From Candidatus Woesearchaeota archaeon CG1_02_57_44 (GTDB lineage: Archaea; Nanobdellota; Nanobdellia; Woesearchaeales; CG1-02-57-44), in contig MNWW01000058.1 in assembly GCA_001871415.1 (NCBI GenBank), forward strand, positions 76,334-130,482: a stretch of 54,149 nucleotides of DNA. Reading direction: 5' to 3'. The stretch's first letter is position 1. Each line of letters opens with the position of its first letter. A program made the position numbers and the translations under genes. Positions 11,752 through 54,034 of the stretch are shown one piece after another. The notes under the pieces are model-generated. The model was given only the letters and a program-made list of their open reading frames with translations. It was not told the origin of the DNA and ran no database searches.

Positions 11752-12579
11752 ATGCTTTCCGTCACGCTTCTCGCTTCAGGCAGTTCCGGCAATTGCGCGG
11801 TCGTTAAAACAGATGATGCCCAGGTGCTTGTTGACGCTGGTACTCCCTACAAGACCTTGGCGGCACGCATGGCCTACCTCGGCCTTGAGCCTGCTGACAC
11901 TGCCGCTATCCTTGTCACGCATGAGCACACCGACCACGTCTCAGGCCTTCGCGTCGCGGCGCGTAGACTTGACATTCCTGTGTATCTGAGCAAGGGCACG
12001 GACCGAAAGACGGCTTTCACTGGTGACTCTCACGTTGTCGGGGCTGATGATCCCTTCACGGTACGGGATCTGCATGTGCAGCCCCTCGCAGCGAGCCACG
12101 ACGCTGAGGAGCCATTGGCATTCGCATTCAGGTCAGGGGATTCCCGGGCTGCCATCCTCACGGACACGGGCATCGCGACACCAGCCATGCACAAGGTCGT
12201 CCGCAAAGCGCAGTTCCTCGCGCTTGAGGCCAACCATGACGAGCAGGTGCTCATGGCCGGCAGGTATCCTGCCTACCTGAAGCAGCGCATCCTCAGCGAT
12301 GAAGGGCATCTGAGCAACGCTCAGGCCGGTTGCCTGCTCATGGAATCTGCCAGCGACGCACTCTCCGGCGTCACGCTCGCGCATCTCTCAGAGCAGAACA
12401 ATACGGTTCAGCTGGCACGCGAGACCATATCGCACATGATATCCCACAGAAATGATGTGTCCCTTGAACTGGATGTCGGGCAGCGGCACGCGGTATCGCG
12501 CACCGCAGTCATTGAAGACGGGTGCTTTTCTTGGCAAGGCGCCTTAAGAACTTTGCCTTTTTTAATCAACAGGGCGTAG
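11752..12579 (+). CDS. MBL-fold metallohydrolase, YycJ/WalJ-like
   Basis: LLASGSSGNCAVV, THEHTDHVSG, HLSEQNNT; CATATAAATC 27 nt upstream. Confidence 0.9.
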   Translation: MLSVTLLASGSSGNCAVVKTDDAQVLVDAGTPYKTLAARMAYLGLEPADTAAILVTHEHTDHVSGLRVAARRLDIPVYLSKGTDRKTAFTGDSHVVGADDPFTVRDLHVQPLAASHDAEEPLAFAFRSGDSRAAILTDTGIATPAMHKVVRKAQFLALEANHDEQVLMAGRYPAYLKQRILSDEGHLSNAQAGCLLMESASDALSGVTLAHLSEQNNTVQLARETISHMISHRNDVSLELDVGQRHAVSRTAVIEDGCFSWQGALRTLPFLINRA

Positions 12580-20242: not shown

Positions 20243-21709
20243 CTACCCTTTCAGGTTGCCGATTGGGACCATCCTCGCGACAGCGGTTGAGATGCCTGCA
20301 TCCTGCAGCGATGCGATGACCATGTCGATGTCCTTATAGGCGAACCCAGCTTCTTCTGCGAGTCCTGACATGCTCGCCGCCTTGATGACGATACCGCGCT
20401 GCTCCATGCGCGCCTTCACGTCCTGCCCGCGCACTTCATCCTTCGCCCTGGTGCGGCTCATGGTCCGTCCCGCGCCGTGGGCAGTGCTGCCGAAGGACAT
20501 GCGCATGGCGTCAGCGGTCCCGGTCAGCAGATAGCTGCCAGTCTCCATGGAACCGCCGATGAGCACAGGCTGGCCAGTCTCCTTGAACATGCTCGCCAGC
20601 TCAGGATGGCCTGGCGGAAATGCCCGGGTCGCGCCCTTGCGATGCACGAGCACCTTGCGCGTCTGAGGTCTCTCTTCTGGTCTGCTGTCATCGGTCGATG
20701 GCACCTGATGCTCCTCTATCTTCGCGATATTATGCGCCACGTCGTAGATGAGGTCCATGCCTTTGCTTGTTCCCATGATGTCTGCGAATGCCTTTCTCAC
20801 GAAATGCGTGATGATCTGGCGATTGGCGAAGGCCATGTTGGCCGCGCATGCCATCGCGGCGTAGTAGTGCTGGCCCTCATCGCTCTGGAACGGCGCGCAG
20901 GAGAGCTGGCGGTCCTTGACATGGATACGATACTTGCGCATGGCCAGATCGAAGTCTTTCAGGTAATCGGTCGCCACCTGATGACCGAAGCCACGGCTGC
21001 CGCAATGCACCATGATGACGACTTGTCCCTGTTGTATGCCCAGGGCTTGCGCTTGTTCTGGGTTGAGGATGCGCTCGACCACCTGGATCTCCAGGTAATG
21101 ATTGCCTGACCCGAGTGTTCCCAATTGGCCGATGCCACGGCTGATGGCGCGCGTCGACACTTTTGACGGGTCTGCCTGTCGTATCCTGCCATGCTCCTCG
21201 ATGCGCTCGATATCCTCTCTACTGGCATAACCATTGTCTAGGCACCATTGTGCGCCGTAGGTGGTGATGTCATTGAACTGACCTCTGGTAAGGGAGACGC
21301 TACCTTCACCGCCGACACCAGCAGGAACGTACTTCGCTATGGTCTGGATGAGCTCCCTGAGCTTCGGCCTGACATCCGCTTCTGTCCAATCGGTCCTGAT
21401 GAGGCGCACGCCACAGTTGATGTCAAAGCCGATGCCGCCGGGACTTATCACGCCAGTGTCCAGGTCGAAGGCCGCGACGCCGCCCACCGGGAAGCCGTAG
21501 CCCCAATGGCCATCAGGCATGCACAGCGCTGGCGCGAGGATGCCGGGCATGCAGGCGACATTGGTCACCTGATCGATGACGCCATCGTCCATGGCGTCCA
21601 GGATGTCTTTGCCGGCGACGATGTGCGCTGGCACCAGCATGCCCTGCTTGAAACTGGCCGGGATCTCCCAGATATTCTTCGCTACTTCCTTCATGGGGGG
21701 GATGGTCAT
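20243..21709 (-). CDS. rtcB: RNA-splicing ligase RtcB
   Basis: CMPDGHWGYGFPVGGVAAF, GGIGFDINCGVRLIRT, GTLGSGNHYLEIQ, HCGSRGFGHQV, AHNIAKIEEH, HRKGATRAFPPGHP. Confidence 0.98.
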   Translation of the reverse strand: MTIPPMKEVAKNIWEIPASFKQGMLVPAHIVAGKDILDAMDDGVIDQVTNVACMPGILAPALCMPDGHWGYGFPVGGVAAFDLDTGVISPGGIGFDINCGVRLIRTDWTEADVRPKLRELIQTIAKYVPAGVGGEGSVSLTRGQFNDITTYGAQWCLDNGYASREDIERIEEHGRIRQADPSKVSTRAISRGIGQLGTLGSGNHYLEIQVVERILNPEQAQALGIQQGQVVIMVHCGSRGFGHQVATDYLKDFDLAMRKYRIHVKDRQLSCAPFQSDEGQHYYAAMACAANMAFANRQIITHFVRKAFADIMGTSKGMDLIYDVAHNIAKIEEHQVPSTDDSRPEERPQTRKVLVHRKGATRAFPPGHPELASMFKETGQPVLIGGSMETGSYLLTGTADAMRMSFGSTAHGAGRTMSRTRAKDEVRGQDVKARMEQRGIVIKAASMSGLAEEAGFAYKDIDMVIASLQDAGISTAVARMVPIGNLKG

Positions 21710-21767
21710 GGCGTGGGAAAGGCCTGTGCAGTATAAAAAAGTGCGGTTTGGGAAACTTGCGGGCTGC

Positions 21768-22268
21768 TCAGATATCAAAGACCACGCGCGCCCTCGTCGG
21801 CTCAGCGTGGAAGTCATGGAAGGTCACTGCTTTGATCTCAACCTTCAGCTTGTGGCGCTTGTGGTCGATGGGCTCACCGCGGACCTCAGCGTGCAGTGAC
21901 CAGAGCGTCGTGTCTGATGGGTCCTGCATGACCTCGCAGTCAGCGTCGATGGACAGGAACTGCTCGGCGTCACGCAGGTAAATGAGCTCCTCGAGGAACT
22001 CGAACAGGAGCAGGTCGAACGGGCGCTTCTCGATGCAGAGCGTGCGCGACTGCGCAGGAACTACTGAATCAGGGTCCATGGTGATTTGCGCGAGCGCCCT
22101 GCACGCCTCAGCGAACAGGCCGCCGGGCGCGTCTGCCTCGATATCGACGCCCACGTCAGCGGTGTAGTGGTCCAGGATGCGAAACATTAGCTTTCGGGGT
22201 TCTGCGCCGTTCATATAGGTTTGGGTGCAGACCGATGGTGATGTTGGCGCGATTCTGATCCGTTTCAT
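21768..22268 (-). CDS. archease
   Basis: FRILDHYTADVGVDIEA...FLEELIYLRDAE...GEPIDHKRHKLKVEIKAVTFHDF. Confidence 0.93.
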   Translation of the reverse strand: MKRIRIAPTSPSVCTQTYMNGAEPRKLMFRILDHYTADVGVDIEADAPGGLFAEACRALAQITMDPDSVVPAQSRTLCIEKRPFDLLLFEFLEELIYLRDAEQFLSIDADCEVMQDPSDTTLWSLHAEVRGEPIDHKRHKLKVEIKAVTFHDFHAEPTRARVVFDI

Positions 22269-51331: not shown

Positions 51332-54034
51332 CTATCTGCGGCCAAACCAGTGTCCGATGGCTTCACTGATGTCCTTGTTGGTTGTCTGCTCGCAGACCGC
51401 CTCGATGGCACGCTGCGGGCTCCAGGCTGGATTCTGGATGTAGGTCAGCGGAGCGACAAGGTGGGTGAGCTGCTGGGCAGCGTAGAGTATCTGTCCGCTT
51501 ACCCTGATCCTGTCCTGGTATGCGTCCTGCACCACGGCGTGGGAAGGATCGCCGGGCCACTGCTCCGCGATGCGCTGCAATGATAATTTTCGCAGGATGT
51601 CATGCTCGCTTCTGGCCCAAGCGGAAGGCGGGTCGCTCCTATTGAACAACCCAGGTTCGACCTGGTTCTTGGAGCAGTCATAGAGGAACGCGGCGCGTGT
51701 CAGGGTCTCCACTTGCTCCTTTCCGATGATGCGTTTCTCTGCCAGACGCGTGCAGATGAGATTCGTCGCCAGGGCGCGCATGAGCGAGCCATACAGATTG
51801 CCGGTCACAGCGTCGAAGCGCGCGATATTGATGCCTGGAATATCCACCATGGTCTCGAGGGGTCCCCATATCTCACCTTCCCTTCTCGGCAATGCTCGCG
51901 CCTCGCGGTAGGGTGCATCTTCCAGATGCAACGCTGACTCGCGGATGAAGATGGCGGATTGCAGGTTCGTCTGCCAGTATTCGATCAATCGTGCCTGCAG
52001 CTTCTGTTGGCCTGCCGCGCGCGAGCTCGGGTCGACTTTGTAGGGGTTGTCGAGCACCAGATAGATGCCGGTCAGGTCATGGGCCGTGACCGGTTCTTCC
52101 AGGCCTTTTATCGATGTCGGCGCCCATTCCTGGAGTGTGAAGGAATATCTGGCAACAGCAGCAGTGGCTGGGCCGAGCATGACATGTCCTGGGACCTTGG
52201 TGACGGCGCCCTCCATACGGCTGGCGATATTCACATCATCGCCCATGACCGTGTACGCTGGTTTCTGCGGCGCACCTGATGAGCCAGATATCACGTCGCC
52301 CGAATTGATGCCGATGCGGATGCCCATTTCCCGTTTCGGTGTACCGTCCGGGTGATGGTACATCTCCCGTATGCACCATGCTGCCAGGCACATCTGTTCA
52401 ACATGCGCGTTGCTCGCCCGTTCCTGGTCAGGGGTGTCGCCGATAGGCAGTCCTCCTATCGCCATGATGGCGTCACCTTCATACTTGTCGACCCAGATGC
52501 CTAGTCCCATGAGCGCCCCGACCATTGGCGTATTGATGTCTATCATGGTCGTGTTGATTACCTGCGGCGCCTGTTCCGGTGTGCCTGCATCCAGCATGCG
52601 TTGCCTCACGCTTCTGGACCATGCCGTGAACCCTGCCGCGTCAGTGAACAACATGGTCGCCGGGTGGTGTGTGGACGTGAGCGTACCGTCCACCAGCGCC
52701 CTGCCTATGCCTCTTGGCAGCATCTGCGTGAATGCGGCAGCGTACTTGGCGGTTTGTTCAACCGCGCTTCGCAGCTGTTCCTGCGCAAGGACCACGCGCT
52801 GGGTCCTGGCTTGTTGCGCGGCAAGCGCTGCCTGCAGATCATCTATCTGACGGGAATAACCAAAGGGGCTGGCGGCCCGGGCCAACAGGTTGGGCAGGAG
52901 TCCCTGCTGGTCCCAGATGGTGTAATGTACACACGTTGGCGTCATGCCCGTCACTTCAGGCATCTGGGATTTTCCACGCGGTCTGTTATCCTGGGTTATG
53001 GTCGCCTGATGCTGTACATTGTAGAACTGGTCCTTGCGCAACACCGACCTGCCATTGACATCTACGGCATGGGTGCAGAGGAATGCGATATTGGGGTCTT
53101 CTGGCCACATGAATTCCCCGACACGGGTCATGGGAATGTAGTCTGAACGCAAGCGCTGATAATCCATGCCCTCGATGGGAGTCAGCTGATCGATTAGCTC
53201 ATCACGGCTGCGGCTCTTCTGGAAGGGCAGCAATGTCGGAGGACTGAGCATGGTCACAAATGAGCCAACAATCGCGCCATTGAAATACAGGTCAGGGCCA
53301 TTGCGATAGATGTCCGCATCAAGGTTGAACAAGTCCGCGGATTCGCGCAAGATCTGCATGACATCGCAGCCACAGTGCGTCTCGACCAGGTGCGTGTTTT
53401 CCTCCCGTTTGCCGATGGAGGGCATATAGGCGTATACGCCTGTGGTGAAATGGCAGTCCCACAGGCGTGGCGGCACCAGGTACGCACTGAAGACAAGGCC
53501 CTGCTGAGGGTCTCGCAGACCGTCATCGGTAAACGGGCGAAGCAGGTTCTGGAACTGGTGCGTATGGCTCAGCATGGCGCTGAGTACACTTGTGGTTCCT
53601 CCTAGTCTGCTGAGCGTCGCCAGGCCACTGAGGGTCGCTCCTCCCTGGTTAAGGTCATAGTAGTGGTATCCCGCGTCATAGAGCGCCAAGGGGTCCTGGA
53701 AATGGTCTACGATGGCGGTGACTACCTGACTGACCTCCTGGTAGGTTGCGCCATCATCCGGTTCCAGCGGTAATGCCGTCTTTTGCAGCCACGGCGCGGC
53801 CTCAAGGAGCCATTCCAGTACTTCCCGGTTTTTTGGGTCCTTGATGGATGGTGCGCTCATGGCCGCAGGCGGCATGCGCTTGCCATCGCGTGCTTCCAAG
53901 CTGCGCACCAGCGCGTACTGTACCACTGTCATGACATTCCTGCCAAAGACCATGGGGCTATAGCTGGAGAGCCACGAATGCGTCAGCATGTCTTCAAGCC
54001 CTAAAGGGTCTGCCATGGGCAACAGGTGTGGCAT
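51332..54034 (-). CDS. class III adenylate/guanylate cyclase-domain protein with large N-terminal region and C-terminal degenerate HD-GYP-like region
   Basis: TMLFTDAAGFTAWSR, VDKYEGDAIMAIGG, GIRIGINSGDVISG, YTVMGDDVNIASRMEGA; C-terminal AAFLYDCSKNQVEPGLFN... Confidence 0.9.
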   Translation of the reverse strand: MPHLLPMADPLGLEDMLTHSWLSSYSPMVFGRNVMTVVQYALVRSLEARDGKRMPPAAMSAPSIKDPKNREVLEWLLEAAPWLQKTALPLEPDDGATYQEVSQVVTAIVDHFQDPLALYDAGYHYYDLNQGGATLSGLATLSRLGGTTSVLSAMLSHTHQFQNLLRPFTDDGLRDPQQGLVFSAYLVPPRLWDCHFTTGVYAYMPSIGKREENTHLVETHCGCDVMQILRESADLFNLDADIYRNGPDLYFNGAIVGSFVTMLSPPTLLPFQKSRSRDELIDQLTPIEGMDYQRLRSDYIPMTRVGEFMWPEDPNIAFLCTHAVDVNGRSVLRKDQFYNVQHQATITQDNRPRGKSQMPEVTGMTPTCVHYTIWDQQGLLPNLLARAASPFGYSRQIDDLQAALAAQQARTQRVVLAQEQLRSAVEQTAKYAAAFTQMLPRGIGRALVDGTLTSTHHPATMLFTDAAGFTAWSRSVRQRMLDAGTPEQAPQVINTTMIDINTPMVGALMGLGIWVDKYEGDAIMAIGGLPIGDTPDQERASNAHVEQMCLAAWCIREMYHHPDGTPKREMGIRIGINSGDVISGSSGAPQKPAYTVMGDDVNIASRMEGAVTKVPGHVMLGPATAAVARYSFTLQEWAPTSIKGLEEPVTAHDLTGIYLVLDNPYKVDPSSRAAGQQKLQARLIEYWQTNLQSAIFIRESALHLEDAPYREARALPRREGEIWGPLETMVDIPGINIARFDAVTGNLYGSLMRALATNLICTRLAEKRIIGKEQVETLTRAAFLYDCSKNQVEPGLFNRSDPPSAWARSEHDILRKLSLQRIAEQWPGDPSHAVVQDAYQDRIRVSGQILYAAQQLTHLVAPLTYIQNPAWSPQRAIEAVCEQTTNKDISEAIGHWFGRR

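Follow-up and report, generated by a model that had tools for sequence, protein, structure and literature searches.

What does a protein of a DPANN archaeon do that carries a class III nucleotidyl cyclase between two regions lacking a domain name? The question is raised by a gene on the minus strand at 51332..54034 of the window, the whole stretch of 54,149 nucleotides that was analysed. It encodes a 900-aa protein, called W in the following, whose open reading frame begins with ATG, contains no internal stop and was found exactly as called in the preliminary description; the label archaeal given there is also right, the host being a tiny, uncultured woesearchaeote. W consists of an N-terminal sensor module, a coiled-coil linker, the class III cyclase and an orphan C-terminal tail. 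It is a soluble protein without any transmembrane segment, as the highest mean hydropathy over 19 residues is only 1.35. The arrangement of sensor module, class III cyclase and tail is new, while the class III cyclase itself is of a known kind. Judged from its sequence, W is real and probably active as an archaeal sensory cyclase, and its sensor module is one that it has in common with kinases.

The catalytic domain and its probable product

The class III catalytic domain spans residues 455-650 (52085..52672, minus strand). It matches Pfam PF00211 with an E-value of 7.2e-19 and 68.5 bits (cut-off 21.9) as well as solved class III cyclases with E-values from 1e-11, which is far beyond chance. 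The best solved match is the domain of Spirulina CyaC (PDB 2w01), a class IIIb enzyme that agrees with W in the catalytic fold and in each of the six catalytic positions; compared with cyclases of the CyaC type W has a different sensor and an additional 240-aa tail. Alignment with cyclases of the same order was used to assign the catalytic hexad, which is complete: D465 and D521 bind the metals, K517 and T595 form the base-selecting pair and N602 and R606 are the transition-state residues. The same six letters, and with them the K/T pair, occur in 44 of 44 relatives, 40 of which belong to the order and 4 to other parts of the class. The peptides quoted earlier were located at 462-468 (LFTDAAG), 518-524 (YEGDAIM), 594-602 (YTVMGDDVN) and 601-608 (VNIASRME), and the PF00211 match and the hexad bear out the class III cyclase with metal Asp, Lys and Asn/Arg that had been read from them. 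The Asp in GDDVN, taken for base-selecting, was a misreading, since the base-selecting position is Thr595, the Thr of YTVMG. The K/T pair is that of many adenylyl cyclases and follows the IIIb pattern. From K517/T595 and this established knowledge ATP is predicted as the substrate, and the cyclase, apparently intact, would probably produce cAMP.

A different product, either cGMP or a cyclic pyrimidine nucleotide of the kind known from Pycsar defence, together with a role other than metabolic sensing, would be suggested by the match of residues 456-609 to the PADLOC model PycC (E 2e-15) and by the result that no CRP-type receptor was found in the genome. However, the PADLOC model fits one relative's CHASE2 cyclase far more closely (E 5e-32), so the PycC match of W reflects the shared catalytic fold, and a Pycsar identity was set aside. 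Moreover, K517/T595 are as in adenylyl cyclases, and the near neighbour of the gene is ilvC, the gene on the far side lying off the contig. We therefore regard another product as quite unlikely and keep to cAMP as the probable one. The receptor search, which the preliminary description had proposed as a check, was run with the cNMP-binding profile PF00027 and gave no match in the 82%-complete genome, while the same profile matches ten bacterial controls; as 18% of the genome is missing, this absence is no proof. A metallo-beta-lactamase-fold protein is encoded at 11752-12579 (plus strand) and matches Apyc1, an anti-Pycsar hydrolase of cyclic nucleotides, with 21.3 bits against a cut-off of 50, probably due to a shared fold only.

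Cyclases of this class are not restricted to W. At a threshold of E<=0.001, class III cyclase matches were found in 48 of the 338 genomes of the order, all of them in the catalytic region, and class III cyclases are therefore recurrent in Woesearchaeales. The earlier statement that they are uncommon in archaea thus fails for this order, but it agrees with a published survey in which they are very rare in archaea. According to a paper of 2021 (PMC8646023), class III accounts for very few archaeal cyclases, all true members of class IV are bacterial and the Sulfolobus CYTH protein acts as a phosphohydrolase. No paper on class III cyclases in Woesearchaeota was found in the open-access literature. 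Ten annotated relatives differ in their N-termini, with five carrying CHASE2, two GAF, one a weak Ig-like domain and two no recognised domain; the CHASE2, GAF or Ig-like class III cyclases of Woesearchaeales are found at L011, L013, L025, L005, L006, L016, L023 and L008. Those with CHASE2 or GAF (L011, L013, L016, L023 and others) share the order and the hexad with W, but they mostly use membrane CHASE2 or GAF sensors, have the catalytic domain at or near the C-terminus and lack the 240-aa tail. In the tree the branch of W is very long and falls outside the woesearchaeal clades, including that with CHASE2, and the placement of W is unsure; its identity to anything found is 29-39% at most. A cyclase-domain scan of viral contigs was swamped by ordinary cyclases, all equally far from W. 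cAMP has been measured in archaea, and about one in seven genomes of this DPANN order has a class III domain. With the hexad intact in every one examined, the class III cyclases of the order are concrete enzymes for testing.

The sensor module and its linker

The sensor module comprises residues 1-395 (52850..54034, minus strand) with a homologous core at about 153-342 (53009-53578). The preliminary description had called the N-terminal 430 aa or so unrecognised, and indeed neither Pfam (at E<=10) nor NCBIfam gave a match for this part of W; it is nevertheless a module that HATPase proteins from four further genomes in the order have as well. In G220, a 693-aa protein (L034) matches residues 153-341 of W with E 1.6e-6 and a 762-aa protein of G013 matches weakly. 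A profile of these three sequences finds G493 at 1.9e-87, a value partly due to its congener G220 being inside the profile, and G110 at 0.0096. All four relatives (L034, L035, L052/L134 and L053), which show 20-23% identity to W, end in a histidine-kinase-like HATPase domain, and in three of them a helix with HDIKND or a similar H-box can be seen by eye before it. Sensor module and helical linker are thus as in W, whereas the output is a HATPase of the histidine-kinase type instead of a cyclase. As the module heads HATPase proteins in the relatives, it is a sensor coupled to two kinds of output. The sensory N-terminal region proposed earlier is supported. Such a common module shows that outputs of two-component and of cyclic-nucleotide signalling were swapped within one archaeal order. 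Including W, five sequences of the module are known in all, a number that we count against our reading of W given below. Two short patterns searched against 84,980 species genomes, an approach of limited reach, found only the G493 protein, and no relative of the N-terminus outside the same archaeal order was found in plasmids, phages or viral contigs. A pattern search starting from all five modules was given up, the alignment being too diverse. AlphaFold, which had been named as a check for this region, was run with the five sequences and reached a pLDDT of 45, and Foldseek gave noise only. Beside the sensor-HATPase gene of G493 (L134:6894-7415, minus strand) lies a gene for a 173-aa protein starting MKYAILIEDNPKLL, which appears receiver-like by eye and has no Pfam match.

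A remote resemblance to V4R domains was noticed around residues 194-221. The G110 relative (L053) matches V4R with 1.4e-4 and 22.3 to 24.9 bits, which is below the curated cut-off of 31, and scores 7.2 bits (0.0017) against a further, archaeal profile that we built from V4R proteins of the order. W, itself without a V4R match in Pfam at E<=10, aligns with this profile at the same place as G110 (CHFTTGV...VETHC), not significantly (0.15). With hhalign the five-sequence sensor profile matches V4R with P 0.0044 and a probability of 8%. C221 and C223 are near the place expected for the V4R Cys cluster, and the C-terminal V4R motif is unaligned. From these alignments we consider the chances that the sensor module is V4R-like to be about even. 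Binding of hydrophobic ligands and a part in signalling are ascribed to V4R domains (PMC2253512), and the related MetOD1 is present in histidine kinases of methanogens (PMC5847659); domains of this V4R/HNOB/MetOD1 superfamily, known from archaeal and bacterial sensors, are placed before signalling outputs like the module of W (PMC5847659, PMC2253512). The possible likeness concerns the FTxG...ETxC stretch, whereas the module of W is much longer, with an extra C-terminal half, and its own match is not significant. V4R proteins of the stand-alone and the tandem type are frequent in the order, scoring above the cut-off in 18 of 208 genomes (L164-L191).

Sensor and cyclase are joined by a linker at residues 396-450 or so (52685..52849, minus strand), and the coiled coil quoted for it was located at 403-427. 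Using phmmer, residues 408-617 of W match atrial natriuretic peptide receptor 1 (NPR-A) with E 4e-11 over linker and cyclase, and as this match starts at 408 it passes through the coiled coil. A low-confidence structure model shows a helix at 393-429, in further support of the coiled-coil linker that had been described between the N-terminal region and the cyclase. In NPR-A, a receptor guanylyl cyclase, the helical linker directly before the cyclase aligns with that of W in one match, but the sensor of W is soluble and unrelated, and no kinase-homology domain was detected in W. Signalling helices are placed ahead of cyclases and histidine kinases (PMC1592074), and by its sequence the linker of W appears to resemble those of receptor cyclases. 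Hexad, sensory region and linker together support the idea of a sensory cyclase put forward in the preliminary description.

The orphan C-terminal tail

The tail comprises residues 661-900 (51335..52054, minus strand). Every other cyclase of the order ends at most about 70 residues past the catalytic domain, whereas W continues for about 240 more. No credible relative of the tail was found in 371 genomes, in plasmids or in viral and genome contigs, the contigs being searched with peptide patterns, and matches that included a HerA-like ATPase and a Streptomyces plasmid protein (E 0.03) were rejected as being at chance level. Within the tail, residues 762-884 (51383-51751) follow the layout that a catalytically dead HD-GYP domain would have. 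The quoted peptides were located from 781 on (AAFLYDCSKNQ...), at 842-860 (RIRVSGQILYAAQQLTHLV) and at 872-880 (SPQRAIEAV), and the linear layout, with His replaced by Tyr and the HH and GYP motifs missing, is present as described, if statistically weak. At the HD position the tail has Tyr785-Asp786 instead of the metal-binding dyad, and HHE and GYP motifs as well as any His-His pair are absent from it. Compared with HD-GYP phosphodiesterases, which have a similar linear layout, W lacks the HD, HHE and GYP residues and is about 20 residues shorter in the active-site part.

From this layout the tail had been read as a pseudo-phosphodiesterase, that is a true but dead HD-GYP domain, which would bind a cyclic nucleotide or dinucleotide and feed back on the cyclase, everything else in W being as we propose. 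When 13 plasmid-encoded HD-GYP domains were made into a profile, the tail scored 7.5 bits against it; residues 762-802 and 842-884 aligned as two pieces in the correct order, and the active-site part between them stayed unmatched. Few controls scored as high in HMMER, namely 2 of 20,000 shuffles, 7 of 5,000 block permutations and 1 of 796 natural windows, and these targeted tests of HD-GYP likeness gave 1e-4 to 1e-3. Realignment with hhalign covers HD-GYP positions 22-149 in one piece, so that two programs do align the order of motifs read earlier; yet the hhalign match itself has P 0.029 and a probability of 1.7%, and 12 of 400 shuffles as well as 11 of 398 natural windows came up to it. Furthermore, the family was picked after seeing the sequence and among thousands of possible ones, Pfam and NCBIfam gave nothing for the tail at E<=10 and HD_5 has no match anywhere in the host genome, which encodes three ordinary HD proteins and no HD-GYP. 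AlphaFold, also named earlier as a check for the tail, was run on the tail alone without relatives and gave a pLDDT of 39.7. The helix order of this weak model is compatible with HD-GYP, but a Foldseek search with a model of pLDDT about 40 is meaningless and returned noise, an HD-GYP structure appearing at rank 42 with E 9.9. As HMMER and hhalign differ in strength, the hypothesis is post hoc, the catalytic motifs are missing and the pLDDT is 39.7, the HD-GYP likeness is suggestive and not shown. Given its marginal significance, the post-hoc choice and the lack of a Pfam or NCBIfam match, the pseudo-phosphodiesterase module was not upheld, and we consider it rather unlikely.

Proposed mode of action and genomic setting

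Taking these parts together, we favour W, from a woesearchaeal member of DPANN, as a sensory adenylyl cyclase of the one-component type that works in the cytosol, and regard this as reasonably probable. The N-terminal module, possibly with a divergent V4R/HNOB-like pocket for small molecules, would sense an intracellular ligand, and the resulting change would be relayed along a parallel coiled coil, which in turn would fix the register of the cyclase dimer. This dimer of class III domains would turn ATP into cAMP with two metal ions, while the tail would add a domain for regulation or docking, perhaps a dead helical one of the HD type. The output domain would have been swapped in evolution, as the same sensor module fronts HATPase outputs in related species. 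One could go further and imagine a cAMP branch of DPANN archaea of their own, in which the sensor was traded between kinase and cyclase outputs, the dead HD-type tail serves as product sensor and the receiver is not of the CRP type, but this is speculative and would be improbable. The gene neighbourhood next to the contig end contains no informative genes, which also counts against the favoured reading, as do the missing PF00027 match in the 82%-complete genome and the non-significant V4R alignment of W.

The gene is separated by 115 bases from the end of its contig of 130 kb (the window ends at contig base 130482), and together with the very long branch of the cyclase outside the woesearchaeal CHASE2 clade this might point to a bacterial stretch that was mis-assembled or mis-binned at the contig end. 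On the other hand, every relative of the N-terminus that was found belongs to a genome of this archaeal order and none came from the plasmids, phages or viral contigs, the contig bears archaeal genes such as NreA, both GC (0.585) and GC3 (0.70) are like those of the neighbouring genes, and the contamination listed for the bin is 0.1%. Bacterial contamination was therefore judged unlikely, indeed very improbable, and W is taken as archaeal. No whole-protein relative was found in viral contigs, genome contigs or plasmids at 80% cover, and W is the one cyclase of the 1.53-Mb host genome (82% complete). The neighbouring ilvC is convergent to the gene of W and 63 bases apart. It belongs to a set at 30464-51268 in which genes for branched-chain amino-acid synthesis are clustered in this DPANN genome, comprising ilvD, ilvE, leuA, an ilvB-like TPP enzyme, two aconitase-family subunits, leuB and ilvC. 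At 20243-21817 (minus strand) the window also encodes an RtcB RNA ligase, for which the nearest NCBIfam model is the intein-containing form, matched only from model position 578.
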